Source: an uncultured Cryomorphaceae bacterium (GTDB lineage: Bacteria > Bacteroidota > Bacteroidia > Flavobacteriales > Schleiferiaceae). Taken from it: a stretch of 64,000 nucleotides of DNA. Location: NCBI GenBank assembly GCA_937120475.1, contig CAKZJV010000007.1:496001-560000 (forward strand), written 5' to 3'. A program made the translations under genes and the position numbers. Below are positions 39,943 through 45,110 of this stretch, one piece after another; position 1 is the stretch's first letter; the number at the start of each line of letters is the position of its first letter. Below the pieces are notes generated by a model. The model made no database searches. It was given only the letters and a program-made list of their open reading frames with translations, and had not been told where the DNA came from.

Positions 39943-41415
39943 ATGAAAACCCCTAGTGATCTCTTTGATCTGGTTCACTCGCTCTCCGGTTCAGAAAAGC
40001 GTTATCTCAAGTTAAAAGCTTCCTTTCACGCTGGTCCCAAGCAATATCTGGAGCTTTGGTCTATACTGGAAAGCCAGCCGCAGTACGACCCAGATAGCCT
40101 GGCCCGGATCTGGGAACAGCAGTATAGCCTTTCCTCACTGGCGGTAACCAAGAATTATCTGTATGAATTCCTGTTGGCCACCTTGGAGCAGTATCATGCT
40201 TCCAAGGGTAAAAAGCTGGCCATCCTCACCCTGCTCAGGCGGGTAGATATCCTCTTTGATAAAACGCTGTATCGGCAGTGTGGAAAGTTGCTGCAAAGGG
40301 CTCGTAAACTGACTTTGCAGATTCAGTCGCCCCGCATGGAACTGGAAATCCTGATTTGGGAGTACCGCATACTGCTGTCCCCTAAATACCAGGGCGAGTT
40401 AAAGCGTTCTATGGAAGATATATTGGCCAGGGAAGCCCAATTACTGCAACAATTATCGCTGGTGAATGCGGCACGCAGCATGCGCTTTAAAGTGGAAAGT
40501 GGAAACGCACCCGATCGTTCGGGCTATGAAGAGTGGCAAAAAAAGTTTGAGGTGGACTTGCCGCCCGGACTGGTTTGCGAATATTACCGGGCTTGTGCCC
40601 TTTATTTACGCACCAAGGGACGTTTAACGGAAGCTGTTACCGAACTAAAGAGAGAGCTGGATTTGCTCGAATCACAAATCCACCTGATGACGGATAAGGG
40701 CTTCTTCAGTAAGTATGAGAGCTGCCTGGAAACCTTGATCCGTACCTTTCACGAAATGGGTGACGCCCGGGCTGCAAGGCAGTATTTGGAGAAACTGAAC
40801 CCCACGCAACTTCCTAAACCATTAGCCCGGTACGATCACCTCCTTATTAAGGCTACCGTGCTTTACTATACCCTTTTACTGGCGCACCTGCAAATAAAGG
40901 AGGAGCCTGTAAACCTCCGGCAAGCGCTGGCAGAAGTGGAATCGTCAGAATACCTTTGGCAGCATGATATCCGCTGGCACTACATCGCTCCCCTGCTCTA
41001 TTCTATGGCGGTGAGTTACCGGGCTTTGGGGGAGTATTCCCCGGCCATCCAAAAGCTCAGTGTTTTCTTCAGTCAGACCTTATTGCAGGAGCGGCAGCGC
41101 TTTTTCCTCGATGCCACCTGGTTGTTTATGATCCTGCATTACGAAAGGGGCAAGCTCGAAATTGTGGAGACCTATCACCACTCCATGCGCAGAAGGCTTC
41201 GGACCGGGATACATCCAGAGCCTGCGGACCAATACCTCTTGAAATTATTCGGTCACCTGATTAATAGTCCCTCCCGTGATTTGCTACAGCATCACTTCAG
41301 GGCTTTCCGGAAAAAGCTACTTGAAATGCAGATACCCCTGCGAAAAGGTGTATTCGATTATATAAAATGGTCGGGCTCTTTCCTACACCCGAAAGAAACT
41401 CTCCGGAACGACTAA
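39943..41415 (+). CDS. Helical-repeat protein, TPR-like, unknown function
   Basis: A 490-residue protein without signal or membrane segment. It consists of paired helices throughout, such as QYLELWSILESQPQYDPDSLARIWEQQYSLSS and LEILIWEYRILLSPKYQGELKRSMEDIL, and the middle KGRLTEAVTELKRELDLL is TPR-like. It was not assigned to a known family. It is convergent with the anti-sigma-like gene, overlapping its stop by 4 bases. Confidence 0.6.
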   Translation: MKTPSDLFDLVHSLSGSEKRYLKLKASFHAGPKQYLELWSILESQPQYDPDSLARIWEQQYSLSSLAVTKNYLYEFLLATLEQYHASKGKKLAILTLLRRVDILFDKTLYRQCGKLLQRARKLTLQIQSPRMELEILIWEYRILLSPKYQGELKRSMEDILAREAQLLQQLSLVNAARSMRFKVESGNAPDRSGYEEWQKKFEVDLPPGLVCEYYRACALYLRTKGRLTEAVTELKRELDLLESQIHLMTDKGFFSKYESCLETLIRTFHEMGDARAARQYLEKLNPTQLPKPLARYDHLLIKATVLYYTLLLAHLQIKEEPVNLRQALAEVESSEYLWQHDIRWHYIAPLLYSMAVSYRALGEYSPAIQKLSVFFSQTLLQERQRFFLDATWLFMILHYERGKLEIVETYHHSMRRRLRTGIHPEPADQYLLKLFGHLINSPSRDLLQHHFRAFRKKLLEMQIPLRKGVFDYIKWSGSFLHPKETLRND

Positions 41416-42794
41416 AATTTTCGGGAAACACCAATGTTTATAGAGCCTGCATAAGGCTTCTGCTCTAATTGGGTAGATTGAAGGTACACTGAATTCAGAA
41501 AAATTCCGGCCTGCGGCATAAGGTGTATACTCCACCTTTCATTGAGGGAAAATGCGAGGTCAAAACCCGCTAAGCCTTCAAAAGTATTCTTCTGAAACGG
41601 GTGCTCTGAGCCATCATTGGTATGACTTACGGCCTCCAGGTTGTGAGGATTAACCCAGGAGGATTGAGCGGTTGTCAGGGAATTCCATACCACACCTAAT
41701 TGACCGTATAGAATTGTGTTTTTATACTGCCACAACTGAATACCCGCAATAAGAGGTACCTGCAGGTAATTATAGGTATTAACCGTAGTGTGATTGATAA
41801 CATCGTGATGGAAAGCATAGCGCTCGGAAAAAGAAGCGTAGCCCAAGCCTGATGATAAATACATTTTAGGATGGAAGTGGTAGCGCAACCCCAGGGTATA
41901 ATTGAAGGTTAAACCCGATCGTTCATGTTGGTTTTTATGGGTTTGTAAATCTTCGTCCGGTTTAATACGAAGGATGCGGTAGGAAAACCCCAAGCCTCCC
42001 CGGGCCATTATCTCAAACCGTTTTCTATCAGACACATCGGTGGCAAAGTCCGTTTTGTTAACGGGTAAATAGTTTGGGTTTAATGTATCGTTAGATATGG
42101 CAGGTGAACCGTTTGCCACCAGTTTTTCCGGTGGTTGTGCAGAAGCCGTATTTTGAGTGGATTCTCTCTTTTTTTCGGCTTCAACGGATGTCTTTAAAGA
42201 GGATGGAGATGCGGCCATTGGCTCTTTCGATTCCTCATACTCTTTTAATACCGGTGCAGTATTATTAATCAAAGCCGTGTTTTGAGCAACGCTTCCTTTG
42301 TTACCGGTGGGCACCCTGGCGGAAACAATGTTGGGCGATGAAGCCTGCAGGGGTACAGTGCTTTTAAAAGTACGGGAGGCTTGCCCTCCTTCCCTATCCT
42401 TTTGAGCGGGAGCAATCTTTTGATTTACAGGAAGTTCACCGTTTCTACTTAAACCCGAAGGTGACTTCTCCTTAGTATCCACCTGGTAAGACTCAGGAGT
42501 ATTCTGAATTGGTTGACTTTCCTCTTGTACTGCAGAATCTACAGGGGGCTCGGCAGTTTGCTCTTGAGTGGTATTAAAAGGGTAAAACAGGCCTATTAAA
42601 ACAATGCCAATAAGGGCCAGTAAGGCCCCTAATAGAAGGCGCCATCCACCGCCCTTCTTTTTTGCAGGTTCAGGAACGTGGTTAATTTCTGATTGTATGT
42701 TGTCAAAAACAGAATCTTCCACCGGAAGCTCAAACCCCTCCAGCTTTTGCCTTAGCAAATCTTCGGTAGTATTTTTCTGCTCTTTATCCTTCAT
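41412..42794 (-). CDS. Putative dual-membrane anti-sigma factor (cytoplasmic N-terminus, C-terminal beta-barrel)
   Basis: The 460-residue protein begins with a cytoplasmic helix (TEDLLRQKLEGFELPVEDSVFDNIQ, residues 10-34), one membrane segment (51-71, WRLLLGALLALIGIVLIGLFY), then a Ser/Thr/Pro-rich low-complexity linker to about 260, and a C-terminal outer membrane barrel (FEIMARGGLGFSYRI to INIGVSRKF). Such an arrangement matches the dual-membrane-spanning anti-sigma factors described in Bacteroides thetaiotaomicron, in which one chain crosses both membranes. Its gene overlaps the ECF sigma gene by 4 bases, which supports this role. Reading by eye only. Confidence 0.7.
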   Translation of the reverse strand: MKDKEQKNTTEDLLRQKLEGFELPVEDSVFDNIQSEINHVPEPAKKKGGGWRLLLGALLALIGIVLIGLFYPFNTTQEQTAEPPVDSAVQEESQPIQNTPESYQVDTKEKSPSGLSRNGELPVNQKIAPAQKDREGGQASRTFKSTVPLQASSPNIVSARVPTGNKGSVAQNTALINNTAPVLKEYEESKEPMAASPSSLKTSVEAEKKRESTQNTASAQPPEKLVANGSPAISNDTLNPNYLPVNKTDFATDVSDRKRFEIMARGGLGFSYRILRIKPDEDLQTHKNQHERSGLTFNYTLGLRYHFHPKMYLSSGLGYASFSERYAFHHDVINHTTVNTYNYLQVPLIAGIQLWQYKNTILYGQLGVVWNSLTTAQSSWVNPHNLEAVSHTNDGSEHPFQKNTFEGLAGFDLAFSLNERWSIHLMPQAGIFLNSVYLQSTQLEQKPYAGSINIGVSRKF

Positions 42795-43378
42795 CGGGCA
42801 GCACTGTAAATACGAATGGTTTTTAACAGATCCCTGAGCTTTTGTTTGGCTTTGGTAAGTTGGCTTCTGGAAGCACTTTCGGAAATTCCCAAATGCTCAC
42901 CAATCTCCTTATGAGAATAGCCTTCCAAAACATTCAGGTTAAAAACCATGCGGTAACCATCGGGTAGTTGGTTGATCAGGTCCACAATTTCCTGGGCACT
43001 CATCTCTGAAACAGGAAGTTCCCAATTGGAAACACTTTGGTCAGCCAACACACTATCGGGTTCAAAAATGATCTTTTTCTGTTTGCTTACATATTCCAGA
43101 CAGCAATTAACCAGAATTCGCTTCATCCACCCCTCAAAACTTCCCTTAAAAGAGAAAGTATGCAGATTTTTATAAATCTTCACAAAGGTTTCCTGGATCA
43201 TATCATTGCTCACATCCGCACAGCCTACATAACGATAGGCAATACCCTTAAATAAAGGTGCGTAACGATTGTAAAGTGAGCGGAAACTCTGTTGGTTTCC
43301 ATCCTTGATTTCTTGTATGAGTTGGTTGTGATCCAATTTTTTTGGTGTGGCAGGAAGCGTTTCGGCAACGACTTCCAT
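42791..43378 (-). CDS. ECF-type RNA polymerase sigma factor (sigma-70 family)
   Basis: The 195-residue protein has sigma region 2 (SFRSLYNRYAPLFKGIAYRYVG then DDMIQETFVKIYKNLHTF-like segment) and region 4 (YSHKEIGEHLGISESASRSQLTKAKQKLRDLL, helix-turn-helix for -35 recognition). It lacks regions 1.1 and 3, as in ECF sigma factors. It is translationally coupled to the anti-sigma-like gene downstream and divergent from the DUF4397 gene by 31 bases. Its regulon is unknown. Confidence 0.9.
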   Translation of the reverse strand: MEVVAETLPATPKKLDHNQLIQEIKDGNQQSFRSLYNRYAPLFKGIAYRYVGCADVSNDMIQETFVKIYKNLHTFSFKGSFEGWMKRILVNCCLEYVSKQKKIIFEPDSVLADQSVSNWELPVSEMSAQEIVDLINQLPDGYRMVFNLNVLEGYSHKEIGEHLGISESASRSQLTKAKQKLRDLLKTIRIYSAAR

Positions 43379-43409
43379 CTACTTATCAAATACCTAAATA
43401 CAATTAAAG

Positions 43410-45110
43410 ATGAATATGTTCGAAAATTACCCCAGGAAAATGTTCCTCACCCTTTGTTTAATGGGAGGAATCTTAGTGACTCAAGCCCAAACCGCTCGCG
43501 TGCAGGTTATCCACAATTGCGCGGATAATATTGCCGACAGCGTGGACGTATATCTCAACGGTACCTTGTTACTCGATGATTTTGCCTTCAGAACGGCCAC
43601 CCCTTTTATTGATGCTCCGGCAGGAGTAAGTCTCGATATTGACGTGGCTCCTAAAACCAGTACCAGTGTGGCCAATTCTATTTACAACCTTAATACCACA
43701 CTTACTGCCGGAGAAACCTATGTGGTTGTGGCAGCGGGAATTACCGGTTTAAGCAGCACATCTTATTCTTCGGCCCCGGCTTTTGAGCTGGATGTATATC
43801 CCATGGGCCGGGAAGTGGCGGACGTAGCGGGCAATACTGATGTATTGGTTTACCACGGCTCTACCGATGCCCCTCCCGTAGATGTATATGAAAGCCGCGT
43901 GCTGAACGCTAATGCCTCTAATAACCTGGTTTACTCCGATTTTGACGGTTACCTGGAGCTCCCCGCCAATGATTATGTTCTGGAAGTAAGAGATTCCATC
44001 GGCAGTGTGGTGGTGGCCAGTTATGATGCGCCTTTACAAACTTTAGGTTTACAGGATTCTGCCATTACCGTATTGGCCTCGGGTTTCCTCGATCCCTCTG
44101 TAAACGGGAACGGTCCGGCCTTCGGTTTGTACGCGGCTTTGGCCAGCGGTGGTAACCTGGTAGCCCTGCCTGCTTCTACCGCTCGCTTGCAGGTTATCCA
44201 TAATTGTCCTGATGATATTGCAGATAGCGTTGACGTATATCTGAATGGCAACCTATTGCTGGATAATTTTGCCTTCAGAACGGCTACTCCTTTTATTGAT
44301 GCCCCAGCGGGAGTAACTATTGATATTGACGTAGCTCCCAAAACCAGCACCAGCGTAGCGAACTCCATTTACAATCTCAATACTGCCCTTACTTCCGGAG
44401 AAACTTATGTAGTAGTTGCAGCCGGTATTACGGGCCTGAGTTCTACCTCTTATTCAGCCAACCCCGCCTTTGAACTGGATGTATTTGCCATGGCCCGGGA
44501 ACAGGCTTCAACCTCCACCAATACCGATATCCTGGTGTACCACGGTTCTACGGACGCTCCTACCGTGGATATTTTCGAGAGTAGCGTTTTGAACACTACG
44601 GCCTCTGATGATTTGATGTACTCTGATTTTGACGGTTACGTGGAATTACCCAACAATGACTACATCGTTGAAGTAAGAGATGCCAGCGGAACCAACGTGG
44701 TAGCCAGCTACCTGGCCCCGCTTCAAACTTTAGGCCTGCAGGGTGCGGCTATTACCGTATTGGCCTCGGGTTTCCTCGATCCTTCTGTGAATGGCAACGG
44801 CCCGGCCTTTGGTTTGTACGCGGCTTTAGCCAGCGGTGGCAACCTGGTTGCTTTACCGGTGGGTTTTGTAGGCCTCGATGAAAACGAGGGGCTCAACGTT
44901 TCACTTTATCCCAACCCGAGCCAAGGAACCTTGTATATAGAGGGTGTGGAAAACTACAACATCGTAATTAGCGACCTCTCAGGAAAAGTAGTCAAACGCG
45001 CCTATGCGGTAAATGGTAGCCTTGATATTAACGATCTGCAAAGCGGATTTTACAACGTAGCCATTGAGTTGGATGGTACAGTTTCCAATGTAAAGCTGGT
45101 TAAGGAGTAA
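43410..45110 (+). CDS. T9SS-exported protein with two DUF4397 domains
   Basis: The 566-residue protein has a signal peptide (ending ILVTQAQ) and two tandem DUF4397 units: ARVQVIHNCADNIADSVDVYL from residue 29 and ARLQVIHNCPDDIADSVDVYL from residue 258. The units are about 229 residues apart and near-identical in many stretches (DAPAGV, SVANSIYNLN, ASGFLDPSVNGNG). It ends in a type A sorting domain (LYPNPSQGTLYIEG). Two beta-rich modules of unknown function exported to the surface. Confidence 0.85.
   Translation: MNMFENYPRKMFLTLCLMGGILVTQAQTARVQVIHNCADNIADSVDVYLNGTLLLDDFAFRTATPFIDAPAGVSLDIDVAPKTSTSVANSIYNLNTTLTAGETYVVVAAGITGLSSTSYSSAPAFELDVYPMGREVADVAGNTDVLVYHGSTDAPPVDVYESRVLNANASNNLVYSDFDGYLELPANDYVLEVRDSIGSVVVASYDAPLQTLGLQDSAITVLASGFLDPSVNGNGPAFGLYAALASGGNLVALPASTARLQVIHNCPDDIADSVDVYLNGNLLLDNFAFRTATPFIDAPAGVTIDIDVAPKTSTSVANSIYNLNTALTSGETYVVVAAGITGLSSTSYSANPAFELDVFAMAREQASTSTNTDILVYHGSTDAPTVDIFESSVLNTTASDDLMYSDFDGYVELPNNDYIVEVRDASGTNVVASYLAPLQTLGLQGAAITVLASGFLDPSVNGNGPAFGLYAALASGGNLVALPVGFVGLDENEGLNVSLYPNPSQGTLYIEGVENYNIVISDLSGKVVKRAYAVNGSLDINDLQSGFYNVAIELDGTVSNVKLVKE
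43494..44855 (+). repeat. Internal duplication within the DUF4397 gene
   Basis: Unit 1 (from 43494) and unit 2 (from 44181) are direct copies with a period of 687 bases, strongly similar in sequence and with some stretches the same (for example the segment around GCCTTCAGAACGGC and CCTCGGGTTTCCTCGATCC). Confidence 0.75.

Follow-up and report, generated by a model that had tools for sequence, protein, structure and literature searches.

In FecR-type signalling, an anti-sigma factor and a TonB-dependent transducer pass an outer-membrane signal on to an extracytoplasmic function (ECF) sigma factor. A different solution is offered by the Dma proteins of Bacteroides, which have been proposed as a direct link from the outer membrane to transcription. 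According to the accessible part of PMC13088901, these anti-sigma factors combine a sigma-binding N-terminal domain, a membrane helix, a long disordered tether and a C-terminal beta-barrel, the class is "found solely among Bacteroidota", and ECF21 sigma factors are encoded beside members of the family; the same text describes a sigma domain within the chain of Dma3, an action of Dma1 through nigD1 and an altered expression of polysaccharide utilization loci (PULs) upon loss of Dma2. Two further pairs are relevant: M0N98_03760/03761 of Phocaeicola vulgatus, in which loss of the anti-sigma factor leads to a longer O-antigen and to protection from two toxins (partial text of PMC9308784), and the EcfO pair of Bacteroides fragilis, an ECF sigma/anti-sigma pair called similar and given a role in oxidative stress (as cited in the accessible parts of PMC9308784 and PMC13088901). 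Here, we describe an ECF sigma gene and the adjoining gene for a putative 460-residue anti-sigma factor, found on a stretch of 64,000 nucleotides from an uncultured Cryomorphaceae bacterium ("the window"; contig CAKZJV010000007.1, positions 496,001 to 560,000), and we propose, with a probability of about 60%, that they form a sigma/anti-sigma switch whose surface sensor and sigma inhibitor are one and the same polypeptide.

The pair and the predicted parts of the anti-sigma chain are as follows.

42791..43378, minus strand: ECF sigma factor gene (195-codon open reading frame (ORF); Pfam Sigma70_r2 and Sigma70_r4_2).
41412..42794, minus strand: gene of the 460-residue anti-sigma factor (ORF, AlphaFold2 model).
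42645..42794, minus strand: residues 1-50, two helices (9-18, 27-38) predicted to bind the sigma factor in the cytoplasm, then a basic stretch next to the membrane (AlphaFold2).
42585..42644, minus strand: residues 51-70, predicted inner-membrane helix (AlphaFold2 helix; hydrophobic run after KKK).
42021..42584, minus strand: residues 71-258, predicted disordered periplasmic tether (pLDDT, the predicted local distance difference test, of 41-64 per block).
41415..42020, minus strand: residues 259-460, predicted eight-stranded outer-membrane beta-barrel with a conserved outer half (AlphaFold2, Foldseek, conservation).

The 195-codon ORF has the two sigma-70 regions, 2 and 4, and the length of about 200 residues that define an ECF sigma factor, with matches to Sigma70_r2 (PF04542, 3e-16) and Sigma70_r4_2 (PF08281, 1.3e-16) that are both over the Pfam cut-off, while its best NCBIfam match, TIGR02985, reaches 96 bits and stays below the cut-off of 126.4. 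The sigma and anti-sigma ORFs share 4 bp (ATGA at 42791-42794). The true start of the sigma gene is probably the TTG at codon 15 (43336), giving a protein of 181 residues, because this TTG is common to four aligned loci while the ATG is not, and because two relatives have no earlier in-frame start.

An AlphaFold2 model of the 460-residue chain, built on a 69-row alignment, has a mean pLDDT of 71.9 and a predicted template modelling score (pTM) of 0.53, as would be expected for a chain with a long disordered part. In this model, helices 9-18, 27-38 and 51-70 reach block pLDDT values of 77-80 and are followed by a coil of low confidence (about 71-258) and then by eight long strands within residues 260-459 (block pLDDT 76-98). 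The tether of 188 residues consists to 78% of P, S, T, N, Q, E, K, D, A and G, and its pairwise identity is only 28% among three orthologues. A KKK motif stands directly before the membrane helix, with R52 at the beginning of the helix and neither K nor R among residues 71-90; from this we infer that the N-terminus is cytoplasmic. As for the barrel, Pfam gave matches below the cut-off only (OMP_b-brl 6.7e-5, OMP_b-brl_2 0.0015), and Foldseek ranked OmpA structures of the PDB first (9fzd, TMt 0.65, E 3.8e-9) and then a mixture of other outer-membrane barrels, from the small NspA, OmpX and OmpW to the larger OmpT and NalP. Neither PHROGs nor, for the anti-sigma set, a profile search of the PDB returned a useful match.

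The original prediction, made from the sequence alone, had placed an ECF sigma factor and a 460-residue chain at 41412-43378, and both ORFs do lie there on the minus strand. The single inner-membrane segment, the disordered linker of about 190 residues and the outer-membrane barrel that it anticipated all reappear in the model, while the one sigma-binding helix that it had assumed became two, at 9-18 and 27-38. A soluble periplasmic domain at the C-terminus, which it had named as one outcome that would speak against it, was dropped in view of the eight predicted strands and of OmpA as the top Foldseek match.

Full or near-full orthologues of the anti-sigma factor were found in three other genomes when 60 relatives were searched, with 51% and 46% identity to the window protein over the chain for two of them and 60% over the barrel for the third, so that the 460-residue frame is not a chance ORF. 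No further full-length orthologue was found among 395 sampled genomes of the order. We then divided the barrel into an outer and an inner half, using strands from the model and taking both ends as periplasmic: columns invariant among the four orthologues account for 75/123 in the outer half and loops versus 27/78 among the inner positions, turns included (Fisher p 3e-4). The loops of barrels, as a rule, evolve rapidly; a more conserved outer half thus points to a defined surface ligand or partner and suggests that the modelled barrel is suited to surface sensing.

In many homologous loci, the sigma and anti-sigma genes share a reading frame and are separated by one stop codon only. A profile of the joined pair retrieved no natural fusion among the matches listed, since all of those reaching profile position 230 or beyond hold at least one stop, and a homologous pair was therefore folded with the stop read as glycine. 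Of 31 loci considered, 26 passed the filter and gave a 26-row paired alignment, the first pair of which (L173) was modelled as one chain with a mean pLDDT of 89.4 and a pTM of 0.84. The anti-sigma helices of this model (193-205, 213-239; block pLDDT 87-97) are placed with good confidence against the sigma factor. When the two sigma domains were aligned jointly to known structures, the L173 sigma fitted the anti-sigma-bound structures SigW-RsiW at 4.9 Å over 156 residues, RpoE-NepR at 4.9 Å over 147, CnrH-CnrY at 5.5 Å over 151 and the SigK complex at 7.7 Å over 146; polymerase-bound ECF sigma factors fitted only at 21-27 Å where both domains were aligned. This result supports a contact between the N-terminal module and the sigma factor in the protein family. 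The sigma contact that the original prediction expected at the N-terminus was in this way supported on a homologue, and for the window pair itself it stays a probable feature.

The gene that diverges from the pair is a likely local target of the sigma factor, judging from its conserved neighbourhood and from a conserved element in the intergenic region, which spans 73 bp if the sigma gene starts at the TTG at 43336.

43410..45110, plus strand: divergent gene, a candidate member of the regulon, for a 566-residue protein that carries DUF4397 repeats and a type IX sorting tail (PF14344 2.7e-34, PF18962 1.5e-9).
43353..43381, plus strand: candidate ECF-type promoter GGAAGCGTTT-N14-ATCTA, directed toward the DUF4397 gene (no mismatch in 4/4 loci).

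A DUF4397 gene is the divergent neighbour of the pair in 4/4 orthologous loci, and the window copy is the only one found in its genome. Identity to the window copy is 77-82% for the copies that adjoin the pair in the relatives and at most 54% for the other homologues there. The consensus RGAAGCGTTT-N14-ATCTA occurs with zero mismatches between the genes in all four loci, and in the window it lies 28 bp before the ATG of the DUF4397 gene; by the usual rules for ECF promoters, its reading as a GGAA-like -35 element with a -10 element some 17 bp further on is plausible. Scanning all fetched loci with up to 2 mismatches, we did not find the element upstream of any of the five complete DUF4397 homologues that have a clear start and no adjoining pair (L161, L162, L163, L164 and L167), including L167, the second DUF4397 copy of genome G018, which has the pair elsewhere. 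Sites with 2 mismatches lie inside the gene in L163 and away from the DUF4397 match in L170; this count leaves aside L165, with a longer frame and an unclear start, and L166 and L169, with weak matches or matches to the C-terminal part. A second association of DUF4397 with a sigma gene was seen at L168:1-2230 (G008), where some 450 bp separate a DUF4397 fragment from another divergent sigma gene, with an anti-sigma N-terminus behind it that is cut by the end of the locus, and no promoter-like element was found there. What this analysis adds to the original prediction is thus a likely target close by and an outer barrel face that is conserved.

In the mechanism that we propose, the two N-terminal helices of the 460-residue protein would hold the ECF sigma factor in the cytoplasm, while the single membrane helix would anchor the protein in the inner membrane, the disordered tether would cross the periplasm and the barrel would sit in the outer membrane with its conserved loops facing outward. 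A surface ligand or partner, or a changed state of the barrel, would then be signalled inward along the tether, with proteolysis or release as the probable step. The sigma factor set free in this way would start transcription in the 73-bp intergenic region, at least of the divergent gene for the type IX-tagged DUF4397 surface protein. A more specific version, which we regard as speculative and rather improbable, is a closed loop in which the conserved outer loops would recognise either a ligand or the DUF4397 protein and the sigma factor, once free, would drive essentially the DUF4397 gene only, the fused chain being one of two versions of the system and the other a three-gene set with a barrel-less anti-sigma factor and a separate gene for a secreted protein. 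If true, it would amount to a one-polypeptide wire from the surface to a promoter with a dedicated target, with sensor, inhibitor, sigma factor and product at one locus. The locus would make a compact test case: it has a single sensor and a single sigma factor, next to a candidate target whose candidate promoter is conserved.

A number of points weigh against a sensor that inhibits its own sigma factor. The whole case is computational, and the contact model concerns a homologous pair instead of the window pair; it was judged by pLDDT and pTM, and always with the anti-sigma factor attached, and a near-invariant Trp of the N-terminal module is Phe30 in the window protein. Among the known structures, SigG1 (7qh5), which is a sigma factor alone by its title, fits the L173 sigma equally well (5.1 Å over 167 residues), the matches to sigma-E/RseA and AlgU/MucA cover just one domain, and BldN/RsbN comes no closer than 12.3 Å. 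Since SigG1 is equally compact without an anti-sigma factor, a compact sigma alone is no proof of inhibition, and our probability was lowered for this reason from 0.62 to 0.60. The comparison of barrel halves draws on four related sequences, on columns that are not independent and on our own division of the strands, and in one of the orthologues (G002, L037:1498-2886) an in-frame TAA separates the tether from the barrel, because the gene is broken or because the assembly is wrong there. On the side of the target, a scan of the window's own genome with up to 2 mismatches gave 23 element matches versus 11 for a reversed control, with one exact match and one with 1 mismatch; other intergenic columns are conserved as well, and the conservation of the neighbour among four relatives may come partly from shared descent. 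The only exact match in the genome is the window site. A wider regulon, considered from the promoter-like pattern, is not claimed, the genome-wide excess (23 versus 11) being unconvincing.

Other explanations have to be weighed against the same evidence. The barrel could serve as a sentinel of outer-membrane assembly that binds no ligand, so that failed barrel insertion, or damage to the outer membrane, would expose the tether or barrel to periplasmic proteolysis and free the sigma factor for a general envelope-stress response. The barrel-bearing pair of Phocaeicola vulgatus, which is induced by the toxin BcpT with envelope stress suggested as the signal (partial text of PMC9308784), would fit such a role, but the conserved outer half of the barrel and the local-looking target better suit a specific surface signal, and we consider the sentinel unlikely. 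It is very improbable that the protein is mainly an envelope tether or a porin, with the sigma factor freed only when the protein is not made and with no surface signal: although the layout alone is compatible with such a function, as is the presence of six genes of this layout in one genome, a sigma gene directly precedes the N-terminal module in 65/70 of its fetched homologues, and the homologous module is placed against the sigma factor in the one-chain model. Finally, the sigma factor may not control the DUF4397 gene at all, the element being an autoregulatory or housekeeping signal and the adjacency inherited, which would be compatible with the other readings. That the case draws on only four related loci, that the genome has a single exact site and that other intergenic columns are conserved speaks for this explanation, whereas the position of the element, 28 bp before the ATG of DUF4397, and the finding of no such site upstream of homologues without an adjoining pair, including the second copy of G018, speak against it; on balance we find it doubtful, if with appreciable weight. 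We retain the sensor-inhibitor chain as the best explanation.

The layout of the window protein (a brief N-terminal part, hydrophobic residues at about 45-70, then a long run of polar residues and a barrel-like region at the C-terminus) recurs within its own genome, where 6 of the 17 sigma genes matching Sigma70_r2 are directly followed by an ORF of this kind, as judged by inspection of their surroundings, with the hydrophobic segment of L032, which the script's threshold did not pick up, called by eye. Against the Pfam barrel models, three of these six chains (L028, L034 and L036) score above the cut-off, L032 falls narrowly below it, the window protein is weaker and L030 has no match better than E 0.1. 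A seventh case, L031, has a similar N-terminus and no barrel; this barrel-less anti-sigma factor (L031:2997-3725) aligns to window residues 6-133 with 28% identity.

A profile of the N-terminal module, built from 17 sequences (7 of them from the window's own genome and 2 from window orthologues), had matches at E <= 0.01 in 90 of the 296 genomes that were sampled from the phylum. We examined 70 of these matches, namely 30 loci returned and 40 picked largely for long frames, which biases the share of long ones, and a sigma gene lies just upstream in the same direction in 65 of them. Among 69 long proteins (56 of the examined matches and 13 others), OMP_b-brl_2 was matched in 45 and OMP_b-brl in 34, in overlapping sets (E <= 0.01). 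In one family outside the class but within the phylum, all nine fetched matches hit a barrel model (E <= 0.01), above the cut-off in six, and eight have an upstream sigma gene. The joined profile matched 312/346 sampled genomes of the class at E 1e-40, a score that the sigma part alone can reach. In these sampled surveys, the layout, as recognised from sequence, is present in many of the genomes from the class and, beyond the class, in one family, suggesting that such chains are a common signalling format of the class and not a Bacteroides speciality.

Some relatives depart from the layout. All nineteen examined barrel-less cousins of 225-283 residues (L048, L050, L053, L059, L060, L063, L072, L073, L076-L078, L084-L087 and L089-L092) are each followed, 7-132 bp downstream, by an ORF of at least 80 residues with a signal peptide recognised by eye. 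Inspection by eye assigned a coiled coil plus barrel to several of these ORFs, a coiled coil only to L059, L060 and L063, and neither to L072 and L087; a Pfam barrel match below the cut-off was obtained for one of three tested. These cousins and their downstream ORFs may represent a split version of the fused protein. At L131:41-2728, the same N-terminal module after a sigma gene appears to share a chain of 895 residues with regions that resemble a TonB plug and von Willebrand factor (Pfam assignment by eye), and L124:1712-2821 is an anti-sigma-like ORF with a tandem double N-terminal motif and, by eye, no barrel-like C-terminus, for which the script found no upstream sigma gene.

The founding 2024 PNAS paper on dual membrane-spanning anti-sigma factors is said to report their restriction to the phylum. 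PMC12045153, which joins such anti-sigma factors with flavobacteria, only cites that paper in its accessible part. In one open library, we found no paper joining DUF4397 with Bacteroidetes and none combining the terms anti-sigma factor, Flavobacterium, beta-barrel and ECF sigma factor. The original prediction had suggested that the locus may widen the known distribution of the class; since the class is already described, in the part of PMC13088901 available, as confined to Bacteroidota, a Dma-type layout is no surprise here, and together with our sampled surveys this led us to drop the idea of a distribution that is new in kind.

The likeness to the Bacteroides proteins, which the original prediction had also drawn, holds for the predicted parts: from the available descriptions of Dma1, Dma2 and Dma3 of Bacteroides thetaiotaomicron (PMC13088901, in part), the four parts stand in the same order as in the window protein, and the genes of Dma1 and Dma2 adjoin an ECF sigma gene as the window gene does. 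The host of the window probably belongs to another order than Bacteroides thetaiotaomicron, and the pairs differ in their apparent outputs, with a divergent DUF4397 gene as the likely target here, nigD1 for Dma1 and PULs affected by Dma2. M0N98_03760/03761 resembles the window pair in that its anti-sigma factor, encoded downstream of the sigma gene, is predicted to span the periplasm and to end in an outer-membrane barrel, while the accessible text of PMC9308784 mentions no DUF4397 neighbour. Unlike FecR/TonB signalling, which uses two separate proteins, the window system would rely on one chain, with a small barrel in place of the TonB receptor. By its predicted architecture, the window protein is built like a Dma.

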